Positions 5,305 to 51,230 of a stretch of 64,000 nucleotides of DNA are shown in pieces. Origin of the DNA: an uncultured archaeon (GTDB lineage Archaea; Thermoproteota; EX4484-205; JAAOZP01). A program made the position numbers and the translations under genes. The DNA is taken from contig CALIBN010000016.1 of assembly GCA_938045545.1 (NCBI GenBank), positions 1 through 64,000 of the forward strand. The letters are read 5' to 3'. The notes beneath the pieces are model-generated. The model was not told where the DNA came from. It saw nothing but the letters and a program-made list of their open reading frames with translations, and did no database searches. Within the stretch, counting starts at the first letter, position 1, and the number at the start of each line of letters is the position of its first letter.

Positions 5305-6264
5305 ATGGAGCCGTTAAAGCATAGGCCGAAGAACCATGTTGAGTGGAATGAGTCCTACTATTTTGTTTTCTACGACTTGAAGCAGGGGCTCGGCGGAATG
5401 ACTAGGCTGGGCTTCAAGCCGAACAAGAAGGAGGCCATGACTTTCCTCTTCCTGCCGGACGGCTCCGCCGCGGGATACCAGGCTGTGGAGGAGACCGGGG
5501 ACTATGGGCTTCAGGGTCTGCGCGTCGGCAAGGTTGTTCACAAGCCTCTTCCCGAAGGTGTTTGGAAATATTTTTTTGAGGGGGACATGATTGCAGTGAG
5601 GAACCCTGAAGACCTTCCTAGGACAAGGGGAAACCCTTCTCTAGCTTCAGGCGTTTTCCCTTCTAGGGTTGAGCTTTCCCTCACGCCGATTAGCGAGGTC
5701 TACGAATATAGTGCGCACATGACTCCTGAGTCCAGGATGCTTGGGGAAAAGTCTGGGGACGAGCACTGGGAGCAGATCGGCATCGTCAACGGGGAGGTTC
5801 ACTTAGGCGGGGAGACATACGGGGTTGAACAGTCTATGGGTCAGCGCGACCATACTCACGGGGTCCGCGAGTGGACCAGCATAGACTACTGGCTTTACTA
5901 CGTTGTCTGGTTTTCAAGGGAGCTTGCAGTCAACCCTGCTGCAATAATAATGGGTGACGGCAGGGTTTCCACAGGAGGCTTCCTTTTCGAAAAGGGAAGG
6001 AATATTCCGATTGAGAGAATCCGTGTTCTCGAGCAGGAGTTTCGAGACGAGGTTATACCCGTGTGCTCCAGGCTTGAGCTGGTCGACGGCCTCGGCAGAA
6101 GGCACGTGCTGGAGGCTAGAGCAGGCCCAGTGATCCCGGTGCCCTTCACTGACAGCGAGAAGAATGTTTCAATACTGGCGCAGTCCTTCGGCAGCTTTAA
6201 GCTGGACGGTGTAGAGGGTGGCTACGGTAGTTTCGAGACGCTTAGGAGGAAGCCGAGAAAATAG
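5305..6264 (+). CDS. AttH/CrtC-like lipocalin-fold protein (DUF7064/7065 type)
   Basis: A 319-residue soluble protein that starts at the base after the stop of the PEP-utilising pseudogene. It carries GQRDHTHGVREW near residue 190, which matches the G-x-RD-x-x-x-G-x-R-x-W signature of the AttH/CrtC-like beta-barrel superfamily (carotenoid hydratases and uncharacterised relatives). A paralogue lies head-on at 6282-7172 with GQRDKSWGPRQW in the same position. In bacteria related proteins accompany lipid, steroid or hydrocarbon metabolism genes. The substrate here is unknown. Context suggests it worked with the PEP-dependent phosphotransfer enzyme. Confidence 0.6.
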   Translation: MEPLKHRPKNHVEWNESYYFVFYDLKQGLGGMTRLGFKPNKKEAMTFLFLPDGSAAGYQAVEETGDYGLQGLRVGKVVHKPLPEGVWKYFFEGDMIAVRNPEDLPRTRGNPSLASGVFPSRVELSLTPISEVYEYSAHMTPESRMLGEKSGDEHWEQIGIVNGEVHLGGETYGVEQSMGQRDHTHGVREWTSIDYWLYYVVWFSRELAVNPAAIIMGDGRVSTGGFLFEKGRNIPIERIRVLEQEFRDEVIPVCSRLELVDGLGRRHVLEARAGPVIPVPFTDSEKNVSILAQSFGSFKLDGVEGGYGSFETLRRKPRK

Positions 6265-15630: not shown

Positions 15631-16362
15631 ATGGGTAAGAGACCAATAGTAAGGAGGCGCGGCAGATCGCCGAACTTCATGGCCCCAACCCACAGAAGGA
15701 TAGCACCAGCCAAATACCCGACCCTGGCTAAAGGAGAAAGACTCGAAGGAACCCTTGTAGCACTACACCACGACCCGGGTAGAGGAGCACCCCTCGCGGA
15801 AATCAGGCTCGACAACGGGAAAGTCTTCCACACAGTTGCCGTCGAATCCATGTATTTAGGGCAGAGAATATCAATAGGGCCGGGAAGCCCGCTCGCAATA
15901 GGAAACATAATACCGCTCGGCGAAGCGCCCGAGGGAATAATGCTCTCGAACATTGAGCGGAAACCAGCCGACGGCGGCGCACTCTTCAGAGCCTCAGGCA
16001 GCTACGCAGTCTTAATCGGGAAGACGAATGGAACAGCCATCCTACAAGACCCCAAGGCGAGAACATTCGTCGTCGACGCAAACTCGCTTGGAACAATCGG
16101 AGTAATAGCAGGAGGAGGAAGAACAGAAAAACCATTCCTCAAAGCAGGAACAAAACTTAAACTCATGAAAAGCAGAGGAAGACACTACCCAATAGTAAGA
16201 GGAGTAGCAATGATAAGTGTTTATCACAAATTCGGTGGGGGAAGGCATCAGCATGTGGGAGGCCCTTCATCGGTTAGCCGTAATGCTCCACCTGGCGCTA
16301 AGGTTGGCTTGATTGCCCCAAGGAAGACCGGTAGGAAGAAGGCTAGAAGAGCATCTGGATAG
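15631..16362 (+). CDS. rpl2: 50S ribosomal protein L2 (uL2)
   Basis: A 243-residue archaeal uL2: MGKRPIVRRRGRSPNF at the start, GKTNGTAILQDP-type KOW/SH3 region, and the catalytic-centre loop HKFGGGRHQHVGGPSS near residue 200. The first 190 codons favour A-ending codons and AGA, while the last 50 return to the G/C/T-ending usage seen in L3 and L4. Unlike many archaea, no S19 gene follows; about 600 bases without a clear gene come next. Confidence 0.96.
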   Translation: MGKRPIVRRRGRSPNFMAPTHRRIAPAKYPTLAKGERLEGTLVALHHDPGRGAPLAEIRLDNGKVFHTVAVESMYLGQRISIGPGSPLAIGNIIPLGEAPEGIMLSNIERKPADGGALFRASGSYAVLIGKTNGTAILQDPKARTFVVDANSLGTIGVIAGGGRTEKPFLKAGTKLKLMKSRGRHYPIVRGVAMISVYHKFGGGRHQHVGGPSSVSRNAPPGAKVGLIAPRKTGRKKARRASG

Positions 16363-23783: not shown

Positions 23784-23814
23784 AGCTTAAAAGCAACGGG
23801 CATTCCTCCTAACC

Positions 23815-23945
23815 TAGCCGTCCGAAAGCGGATCTAACCGAGCATAGGGCTTAAGCTCTGCTGTGAGGGAGGAGGACCCAGGGCGGCGAAACAGCAGAGC
23901 TCGGTTAAAGAGGCCTTAGAGCATGCGTTAGGCATGCTGTGAAAA
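23815..23945. ncRNA. Candidate structured RNA in the coaD/Toprim intergenic region
   Basis: This 178-base gap contains three strong hairpins: TCCG-AAAG-CGGA (about 23819-23830), an 11-bp perfect stem AGCTCTGCTGT/ACAGCAGAGCT enclosing 26 bases (about 23853-23900), and AGCATGC-GTTAG-GCATGCT (about 23922-23940). The GC content is higher than in nearby spacers. Serial hairpins suggest a structured RNA such as an H/ACA guide or a small RNase P-like RNA, but I cannot assign a class or strand. An attenuator-like structure is also possible. Confidence 0.4.
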
Positions 23946-23962
23946 AGGACGTCAGGCCGAGC

Positions 23963-24391
23963 TTAAAAAACCTCCTGCTCGGTTTTGCTCGTGATAAAAC
24001 TGGGTATGCCTTCAACATCCTTAGCGGAGCCGCCTAGAGCCTGTTTAAGCCTATACTTATACTCTGTGTTAACCCTTACTCGCCCTGAGCAGATCTTCCT
24101 TATTTTCACGCTGTGCGACCTTCCCCTCCTGTCGAAATCTGTTAGGACAACTATTTCCGAAAGCTTTTCCTTCTCAAGCCAGTCTGTGGATGCAAGCCTG
24201 ATGAAGCTTCTAAGAGTCATTATCTTGGCTTTAACCCCGAGTTTAACCAGCGCCTGCCTGTCCTTTACACCCTCAACCACTATGAGCAGTCCCGCGTCGC
24301 CGAGGTTCAGCTCCTGAATAATCCTGCCTATTGTTTCTGCTGAAGCAGTGTCGCGCCTGCTCCCTGTCTTCCCAAGCCTGGGCAATAGCAC
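23963..24391 (-). CDS. Small Toprim-domain protein
   Basis: A 142-residue protein consisting mainly of a Toprim fold: the glutamate in LLIVVEGVKDRQAL and the D-x-D in VVLTDFDRRG. Archaeal stand-alone Toprim proteins of this size are related to the catalytic domain of RNase M5 and DnaG. Its role is uncertain; RNA processing is likely. It is divergent from dnaG, another Toprim protein, across about 120 bases that include the AT-rich AAGTTTAAAT promoter-like element. Confidence 0.75.
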   Translation of the reverse strand: MLLPRLGKTGSRRDTASAETIGRIIQELNLGDAGLLIVVEGVKDRQALVKLGVKAKIMTLRSFIRLASTDWLEKEKLSEIVVLTDFDRRGRSHSVKIRKICSGRVRVNTEYKYRLKQALGGSAKDVEGIPSFITSKTEQEVF

Positions 24392-24510
24392 TCGCTTTGG
24401 TCAAAGCAGTCCGGGATAAAAAGTTTAAATCCCCTTTAAAGGCTTAGGATGACAGTGATGCTTAATGAGGTTAGTGAAAGCATGCTTATCCGTAGTGGCA
24501 AGGAGGCTTG

Positions 24511-25703
24511 ATGGAAATGGGGTCTGAACAGCCCCCGCCGATTACGAAGTACGTGATTAGGGTGGAGTTTGAAGTCGAGGGGGTTGTGGAGAGAATCTTC
24601 TTCAAAAGGGAAGGTTCCCGCATAAACACGATATTATAGGAGCCATATTCGGACAGACTGAAGGTCTGTTCGGAGACACCCTCGACTTGAAGAAACTCCA
24701 GAAGAGTGGCAAGCTTGGAAGAATAGACGTTGATCTGAAGAAGGAGGATAAGAAGACCGTTGGAAACGTGACTATCCCTAATAATCTTGATCAGCCTACT
24801 GCAGCGCTTCTAGCGGCGACGCTGGAAAGCATAGAGAGGGTTGGACCTTACGACGCCTGGTTTAAACTAGTTAGCGTTGAAGACATGAGGGAAGAGAAGA
24901 GGAGGAGGATCATGGAGAGAGCGAAGGACATTATGCAGAGATGGTCAGCCTCCCAGAGGAGCGAAGTAATACAGATGATAAGCCAGGTTAGTGAGGTCAG
25001 TGACGTTGGCAAAATAGTTAGTCTCGCTGCCGATGTTGAAGGCGGGCCTGAGGCTGAGTCGAGTGAAACACTGTTCATCGTTGAGGGCCGAGCTGATTTA
25101 ACCACTCTTATGAAGGCGGGCGTTAAGAACGTGGTTGCGACCAACGGTGTGAACATTTCCCAGTATGTGGTTAACCTGACCCATAAGAAGAAGGAGGTTA
25201 CAGTTCTGGCTGACGGCGACAGGGTTGGCGACATGATTGTGAAAGAGCTTCTGAGAAGAGGGGCGAAAATAGACTACGTAGGCAAGGCTCCTCAAGGGAG
25301 GGAGGTTGAGGAGATGAAGCCTATTGAAATCCTAGACATGATAAGCAGGAGGGTTGACGTTAAGACTTATCTCGCAACCTTGCAGGCGACGGCTAAGCCG
25401 GCTGCCCCGGAAAACCTTCTGAACGTTATGAAGACGCTTAGGGACAGGGTGAAGGAGTCCTTCACCGCGATTCTTCTAGACGATGAGGGAGAGATTATGG
25501 ACGAGGTCCCTGTGAGCCAGCTTTTCGAAAGGCTGAGTGAGCTTGACAACGTTGCCGGAGTTATTTTCGACGGTATTGTTTCCCAAAGGCTTCTCGACCT
25601 TGCTCAAAGCAAGAATGTGAAAATCATGGTCGGCGAGAGAATAGGCATCGTGGAGAAGATGCCTAGAGAGATAGTTGTCAAGACCCTCGACGAATTAAAA
25701 TAG
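24511..25703 (+). CDS. dnaG: Archaeal DnaG (Toprim), interrupted by a 32-nt insertion
   Basis: The 3' part, open from 24624, is a typical archaeal DnaG: DIIGAIFGQTEGLFGD, then LFIVEGRADL and VLADGDRVGD (Toprim Glu and DxD). It has no start codon of its own. The missing N terminus, KYVIRVEFEVEGVVE, lies upstream in another frame from ATG 24511 (or 24517). Removing exactly 24592-24623 joins the two into the family consensus FEVEGVVE-KHDIIGAIFG. The inserted bases form a hairpin, GAATCTTC/GAAGGTTC. Archaeal DnaG associates with the exosome and has primase activity. Interruption of a core gene is odd; see findings. Confidence 0.85.
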
Positions 25704-26539: not shown

Positions 26540-29693
<3,154 letters not shown>

Positions 29694-37692: not shown

Positions 37693-37935
37693 AACAACCA
37701 ATATTTGGAAACAAGCCTCCTGATGCGAGTAATGTGGATTAGAAAATAATTAATTCCAATATTTACTGAGATTAAGGAATAAATAATACTGTAGACTAAC
37801 ACTCCTATTCCGCTTATTTCTAAATCTTCCCCTCGAACCACCACTAGCTTCAAACATGCTCGACCCAGCCTGCCCACCTTCTAAAGGGTTTTCGGCGAAA
37901 ACGTTTTAAGCCCCTTTTCCAAAGAAAACTGTTGA

Positions 37936-38027
37936 GCCTCGGTAACTCAGCCTGGTAGAGTGGCAGCCTTGTAAGCGGAAAAGGCTGAGAAAGCTGTTAG
38001 GCGAGGGTTCGAATCCCTCCCGAGGCT
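37936..38027 (+). tRNA. tRNA-Thr(TGT) with canonical anticodon-loop intron
   Basis: Acceptor GCCTCGG/CCGAGGC, discriminator T as in archaeal Thr tRNAs. The anticodon loop CTTGTA gives TGT. About 18 bases (beginning AGCGGAAAAGG) interrupt after position 37 before the 3' stem GCTGT. T arm GAGGG-TTCGAAT-CCCTC. Confidence 0.92.
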
Positions 38028-38090
38028 TCCTTCAAAAATATGGATCATTAAGGTTGTTGTTGAGCCCAGCTGGACGTGTCTGCTTAAATC

Positions 38091-38852: not shown

Positions 38853-38890
38853 TGCGGATGCTTGACGCATTACGACGTTCAGCTTAAACG

Positions 38891-38983
38891 AGCCCCAGGT
38901 GGGCTTCGAACCCACGCCCTCCTCCATTGACGCTTTTCCAGCATTACCAAGGAGGCGCTCTAACCAGGCTGAGCTACTGGGGC
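38891..38983 (-). tRNA. tRNA-Thr(GGT) with canonical anticodon-loop intron
   Basis: Acceptor GCCCCAG/CTGGGGC, discriminator T. Anticodon stem CCTCC/GGAGG with loop TTGGTA gives GGT. An intron of about 18 bases (beginning ATGCTGGAAAAGC) follows position 37. T arm GTGGG-TTCGAAG-CCCAC. It closes the tRNA-rich accessory zone that begins at tRNA-Ala. Confidence 0.92.
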
Positions 38984-51103: not shown

Positions 51104-51230
51104 GTCGGGGTAGCCAAACCTGGTTAAGGCGCGAGATGCGCGATGTACGCGAGCCTGCTAAGCTCGTGGCCCATGAGAGTTCCATGATGGAACCACGAGG
51201 GCCGTGCGGGTTCAAATCCCGCCCCCGACG
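51104..51230 (+). tRNA. tRNA-Ser(GCT) with two probable non-canonical introns
   Basis: Acceptor GTCGGGG/CCCCGAC, discriminator G. Anticodon arm CGAGC-CTGCTAA-GCTCG gives GCT. T arm GCGGG-TTCAAAT-CCCGC. About 18 extra bases (GCGAGATGCGCGATGTAC) lie between the D arm and anticodon arm. The variable arm GGCCC/GGGCC holds an extended loop with its own hairpin GTTCC/GGAAC. Two introns totalling about 40 bases are inferred. Confidence 0.85.

Follow-up and report, generated by a model that had tools for sequence, protein, structure and literature searches.

A probable EndA-type bulge-helix-bulge intron in the coding sequence of dnaG in Candidatus Brockarchaeota

Background

How can DnaG be made in an archaeon in which the frame of dnaG is broken 25 codons after its start? 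This question is raised by a window of 64,000 nucleotides, namely, the stretch of DNA analysed here, which belongs to contig 16 of a 2.03-Mb draft genome in 51 contigs (Candidatus Brockarchaeota lineage, as judged from its relatives). A sequence-only reading of the locus had left four options, i.e., a short mRNA intron, translational bypass, a recent hairpin insertion and an assembly error. We examined these and other explanations using the RNA structure around the interruption, the orthologs of the gene in related genomes, and the genes for splicing enzymes in the same genome.

Results and discussion

The dnaG gene is split by 32 bases

The dnaG gene lies on the plus strand at 24517-25703 and is split by the bases 24592-24623 (Table 1). 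The frame of its first 25 codons (MGSEQPPPITKYVIRVEFEVEGVVE) reads ...FEVEGVVE, passes the GAG codon at 24589-24591 and runs into RIFFKREGSRINTIL and a stop, and KHDIIGAIFGQTEG and the remainder of DnaG are encoded in a different frame; the unspliced mRNA would give a product of only about 40 residues, and an ordinary ORF search at this locus returns only a truncated DnaG. A second start, ATG 24511, is possible, and a GGAGG is located at 24502-24506. As the sequence-only reading had proposed, deletion of 24592-24623 restores the protein: the resulting DnaG of 384 amino acids matches the archaeal model for this protein, NF003108, with 377 bits (cut-off 300). The removal joins VE to KHD with the junction peptide VEGVVEKHDIIGAIFGQTEG, and the predicted joined mRNA reads ...GTTGTGGAG followed by AAACACGAT. 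Another intact dnaG elsewhere in the genome, which that reading had named as a way in which its proposal could fail, was searched for genome-wide, and a single copy was found.

Table 1. Positions of the putative dnaG intron, its exons and structural elements, and of a tRNA intron in the same window
Feature	Position	Strand	Remarks
dnaG exon 1	24517..24591	+	25 codons, MGSEQPPPITKYVIRVEFEVEGVVE; ATG 24517 start conserved in relatives
Putative BHB intron, 32 nt	24592..24623	+	phase 0, between GAG and AAA codons
dnaG exon 2	24624..25703	+	KHDIIGAIFGQTEG... to stop
Outer helix, 5' strand GUU (exon 1)	24583..24585	+	pairs with 24625-24627
Central 4-bp helix, 5' strand GUGG (exon 1)	24586..24589	+	GTGG in 10/10 orthologues
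5' bulge AG^A	24590..24592	+	predicted cut 24591/24592
Inner stem, 5' strand GAAUCUUCUU	24593..24602	+	
Inner stem, 3' strand GGGAAGGUUC	24608..24617	+	
Central 4-bp helix, 3' strand CCGC (intron)	24618..24621	+	
3' bulge AU^A	24622..24624	+	predicted cut 24623/24624
Outer helix, 3' strand AAC (exon 2)	24625..24627	+	
tRNA-Thr(UGU) BHB intron, 18 nt	37974..37991	+	same-genome control; tRNA 37935-38030, canonical 37/38, 3-4-3

Since a 338-aa ORF opens at TTG 24687, the locus might encode two separate proteins, namely, a peptide from exon 1 and a shorter DnaG that begins at this TTG. However, such a start would lose the KHDIIGAIFGQTEG block, which is conserved phylum-wide and is in-frame in the order, and would leave the bulge-helix-bulge (BHB) structure described in the next section without explanation; we consider this arrangement extremely unlikely. 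Group I and group II introns contain a ribozyme core and are hundreds of nucleotides long, and both were rejected for this insertion, which has only 32 nt; an Rfam search at 24400-24800 gave no match.

The surroundings of dnaG have some features of their own. A small TOPRIM-domain protein is encoded at 23966-24391 on the minus strand of the window, divergently from the adjoining dnaG, and a similar TOPRIM-like frame is found directly upstream of dnaG in the genomes of family f31, which are described below. The stretch 23800-23960, lying between two genes, is GC-rich and contains complementary segments that might belong to a small RNA; Rfam gave no match for it.

A canonical bulge-helix-bulge motif spans the insertion

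The sequence-only reading had described an 8-bp inverted repeat within the insertion and had reported that no canonical BHB could be found there. The repeat is real, and its full length is 10 bp around a loop of 5 nt (GAATCTTCTT CAAAA GGGAAGGTTC), but the second statement has to be corrected. In the RNA order GUU-GUGG-AGA-GAAUCUUCUU-CAAAA-GGGAAGGUUC-CCGC-AUA-AAC, a canonical 3-4-3 BHB spans the insertion; its 4-bp helix (GUGG/CCGC) is flanked by two bulges of 3 nt, AG^A on one strand and AU^A on the other, and it has an inner stem of 10 bp and an outer stem of 3 bp (GUU/AAC). For the introns of cbf5, each cut by the tRNA-splicing endonuclease EndA has been stated to separate the second bulge residue from the third (PMC2738675). 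Applied here, this rule places the cuts at 24591/24592 and 24623/24624, which delimit exactly the 32-base interval that the sequence-only reading had itself derived from the protein. When junctions that keep DnaG intact were searched, no second BHB solution was found.

In the minimum-energy RNA fold (z = -2.6), both the central helix and the inner helix are present, together with the bulges. We also shuffled the insertions with their dinucleotide composition preserved, keeping the exons fixed, in this gene and its orthologs (next section). For the seven genes whose insertions are 29-32 nt long, none of 20,000 shuffles attained the pairing of the real sequence in its exact register, and the frequencies were 0.00005, 0.005 and 0.009 for the insertions of 23, 18 and 19 nt, respectively; as the genes are related, these values cannot be multiplied, the divergence among families f1, f3 and f4 providing partial independence. 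The fold of the 18-nt insertion is no more stable than those of its shuffles, thus, the argument for this ortholog rests on geometry and homology.

A scan of the whole window for BHB motifs that join open frames returned few other candidates, whose stems have 5-7 bp. Three of them, at 15952, 43704 and 52728, were rejected, since they lie inside the intact genes for L2, an amidase and a ribonucleotide reductase in a different frame, as were those at 29173, 29429 and 27424, which fall within the LSU rRNA region. Further candidates are located at 5676, 55818 and 63282.

The insertion is conserved and covaries throughout the order

We examined 12 genomes of the order, mostly titled Candidatus Brockarchaeota (a search at the class level gave the same 12), and found a dnaG match in 10 of them, the other two being incomplete assemblies (70 and 77%). 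All 10 genes are interrupted at the identical codon boundary, with VE before it and K-H-D or R-S-D behind it, and this site is shared by three families of the order (f1, f3 and f4). In 10/10 genes, exact excision of the insertion recovers the DnaG consensus. The insertion is 32 nt long in five species, and 30, 29, 23, 19 and 18 nt in the remaining ones; the lengths of 30 and 18 nt are multiples of three, yet these insertions contain in-frame stops. Both exons are conserved at the protein level throughout the members of the order with dnaG, and exon 1 evolves as coding sequence within the order, dN being lower than dS in each pair for which both could be estimated (15 codons only).

Each of the 10 genes has a single BHB solution, with the central helix and bulges in the canonical 3-4-3 arrangement. 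None of them has an unpaired position in the central helix, whose second pair is U-G or U-A. Changes on both sides of a pair occur at O1, I2, I3 and I4 (A-U to G-C, U-A to C-G), and changes on one side at C2, O2 and O3; the only unpaired cells in the table of pairs are three, all in the outer helix, with one mismatch in each of 3 of the 10 orthologs. Moreover, GTG precedes GAR in 10/10 exons of the order versus 2/21 outgroups at that codon, as is expected if these exon bases pair with the intron.

These observations bear on the remaining options of the sequence-only reading, whose short mRNA intron stands, whereas the order-wide conservation, variable length, in-frame stops and covariation contradict the other three. 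Bypass of the phage T4 gene 60 type uses matched take-off and landing codons, and here the ribosomes would have to hop over 32 nt, aided by the hairpin, from GAG to the codon before AAA. Although the hairpin directly follows the putative take-off codon and the junction lies on a codon boundary, the orthologs offer no matching landing codon (CAT, CAG, CAA or CTG before AAA or AGA, versus GAG or GAA at take-off), the insertion varies between 18 and 32 nt, and the exon bases pair on both sides with the spacing of a BHB, which bypass does not need; we therefore regard bypass as very unlikely. The broken frame in the genomic DNA is also what a recent hairpin insertion or gene decay would produce, leaving dnaG a dead pseudogene. 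This is hardly credible, however, for a single-copy gene with both exons conserved as protein in the order and an insertion at the identical site in f1, f3 and f4, with covariation. An assembly or sequencing error, which the draft state of the source with its 51 contigs might suggest, has a practically negligible chance, since ten separately assembled genomes carry the insertion in six different lengths.

To describe the distribution outside the order, we sampled 250 and then 398 genomes of the phylum, with the sequences of 21 outgroup loci. Among the matches listed, DnaG outside the order is uninterrupted at this site, except in the f31 genomes and in a gene truncated where its contig ends, a survey that is strong and non-exhaustive, as short in-frame insertions could escape it. 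The comparison thus indicates that the dnaG insertion is order-wide and old. Two other breaks in dnaG were rejected as introns: in genome G386 the frame changes near profile column 97/98, with only 4 nt between the two parts, which is likely a sequencing error, and in G069 the split is the contig end itself.

A probable second dnaG intron in family f31

The two members of family f31 (G193, at L042:480-620, and G085, L043) carry insertions of 19 and 26 nt, respectively, between FGQ and TEG, about 12 codons downstream of the site in Candidatus Brockarchaeota. Here CGGU pairs with GCCG, CA^A and AA^A form the bulges, and DnaG is again restored exactly by the cuts (ALFGQTEGIFSS); with its offset outer helix (CCCUCU with AGAGGG), this motif is near-canonical. 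Since the other 42 genomes of f31's order have an uninterrupted match, the f31 intron is a separate gain, and the sequences indicate that it is independent of the one in Candidatus Brockarchaeota.

Splicing enzymes and the proposed mechanism

The genome encodes an EndA of 187 amino acids in which the region of the catalytic His (in the motif GPGIDHAP) is conserved, and whose best matches are solved EndA chains of the two-subunit type. A second EndA subunit does not have the catalytic His, this region reading GSKPAKYLV; both subunit types were read from sequence. Earlier authors have tied such a two-subunit pattern to archaeal pre-mRNA splicing (PMC2738675). At least two EndA-domain genes are present in 9/9 members of the order tested, and in both f31 genomes. 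A gene for the ligase RtcB is also present in the genome. It forms a 984-aa frame (G000 C12:87383-90181; L047, L048) with about 1.5 kb between two domain parts, probably an intein. As a control for the motif, a tRNA-Thr(UGU) in the window contains an intron of canonical geometry (Table 1). Two other tRNAs in the window, at 38890-38983 and 51104-51230, are above normal length and probably contain introns.

Taken together, the canonical BHB, the coincidence of its cuts with the protein junction, the conservation in the order, the covariation and the enzyme genes make it very probable that the 32 bases are an EndA-type BHB pre-mRNA intron, from which EndA cutting and RtcB joining would yield full-length DnaG. 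The dnaG transcript would fold into a BHB across the exon-intron borders, and EndA, presumably a hetero-oligomer of the two subunit types, would cut each 3-nt bulge behind its second nucleotide; RtcB would then ligate the exons, so that exon 2 could be translated in frame with exon 1, and the free intron would be released, perhaps as a circle. We infer that such cleavage and ligation of the dnaG transcript occur in the cell. As far as the sequence tells, the removal might instead be the work of an RNase other than EndA.

Comparison with known archaeal introns

The pre-mRNA intron of cbf5 was reportedly the subject of work by Watanabe in 2002 and Yoshinari in 2006. It occurs in Sulfolobales and Desulfurococcales with a length of 16-44 bp (Yokobori 2009, PMC2738675). 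The dnaG intron resembles it in being short (18-32 nt versus 16-44 bp) and in interrupting the coding region for a protein of RNA processing, in the BHB at its borders with cuts behind the second residue of each bulge, and in its occurrence in a lineage with two types of EndA subunit, its variable interior and its old, order-level inheritance. However, gene and lineage are different, and the cbf5 introns mostly have an unconventional BHB, whereas the motif is canonical 3-4-3 in 10/10 dnaG genes. An interruption of cbf5 itself was looked for in this genome, and the cbf5/TruB_N frame was found to be open.

Archaeal tRNA introns, at 37/38 and at non-canonical positions, share the motif and presumably the enzymes with the dnaG intron. 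In contrast, the latter interrupts an mRNA, and accordingly its outer helix is short and consists of codons that are constrained by the protein. An EndA substrate in an untranslated leader is likewise an mRNA cut by EndA, but the dnaG intron lies inside the coding sequence.

In a 2016 statement cbf5 was the only gene affected, in some crenarchaea (PMC4810243), and as of 2020 it was the only reported example in a coding sequence (PMC7714728). In the full-text literature searched, a body that most subscription papers fall outside, we found neither an intron of dnaG nor mRNA introns of Brockarchaeota reported. As far as this literature shows, such an intron is new for this gene and for this lineage, and so is a canonical BHB throughout the order.

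Implications

Since an ordinary ORF search yields only a truncated DnaG, such introns are easily missed. DnaG is an RNA-binding subunit of the archaeal exosome (PMC4227792), and it is conceivable that its level would be controlled through splicing. A further possibility, which we consider speculative and rather unlikely, is that BHB introns have been gained in dnaG repeatedly within the phylum, as its two independent introns would exemplify, and that splicing couples the composition of the exosome to the tRNA-splicing machinery. With dnaG as the second such gene, in a lineage other than that of cbf5 and with the intron kept throughout an order, in addition to the independent f31 case, BHB pre-mRNA introns would have arisen several times, and the dnaG introns would provide a natural test system for the gain and tolerance of coding introns where transcription and translation share one compartment.
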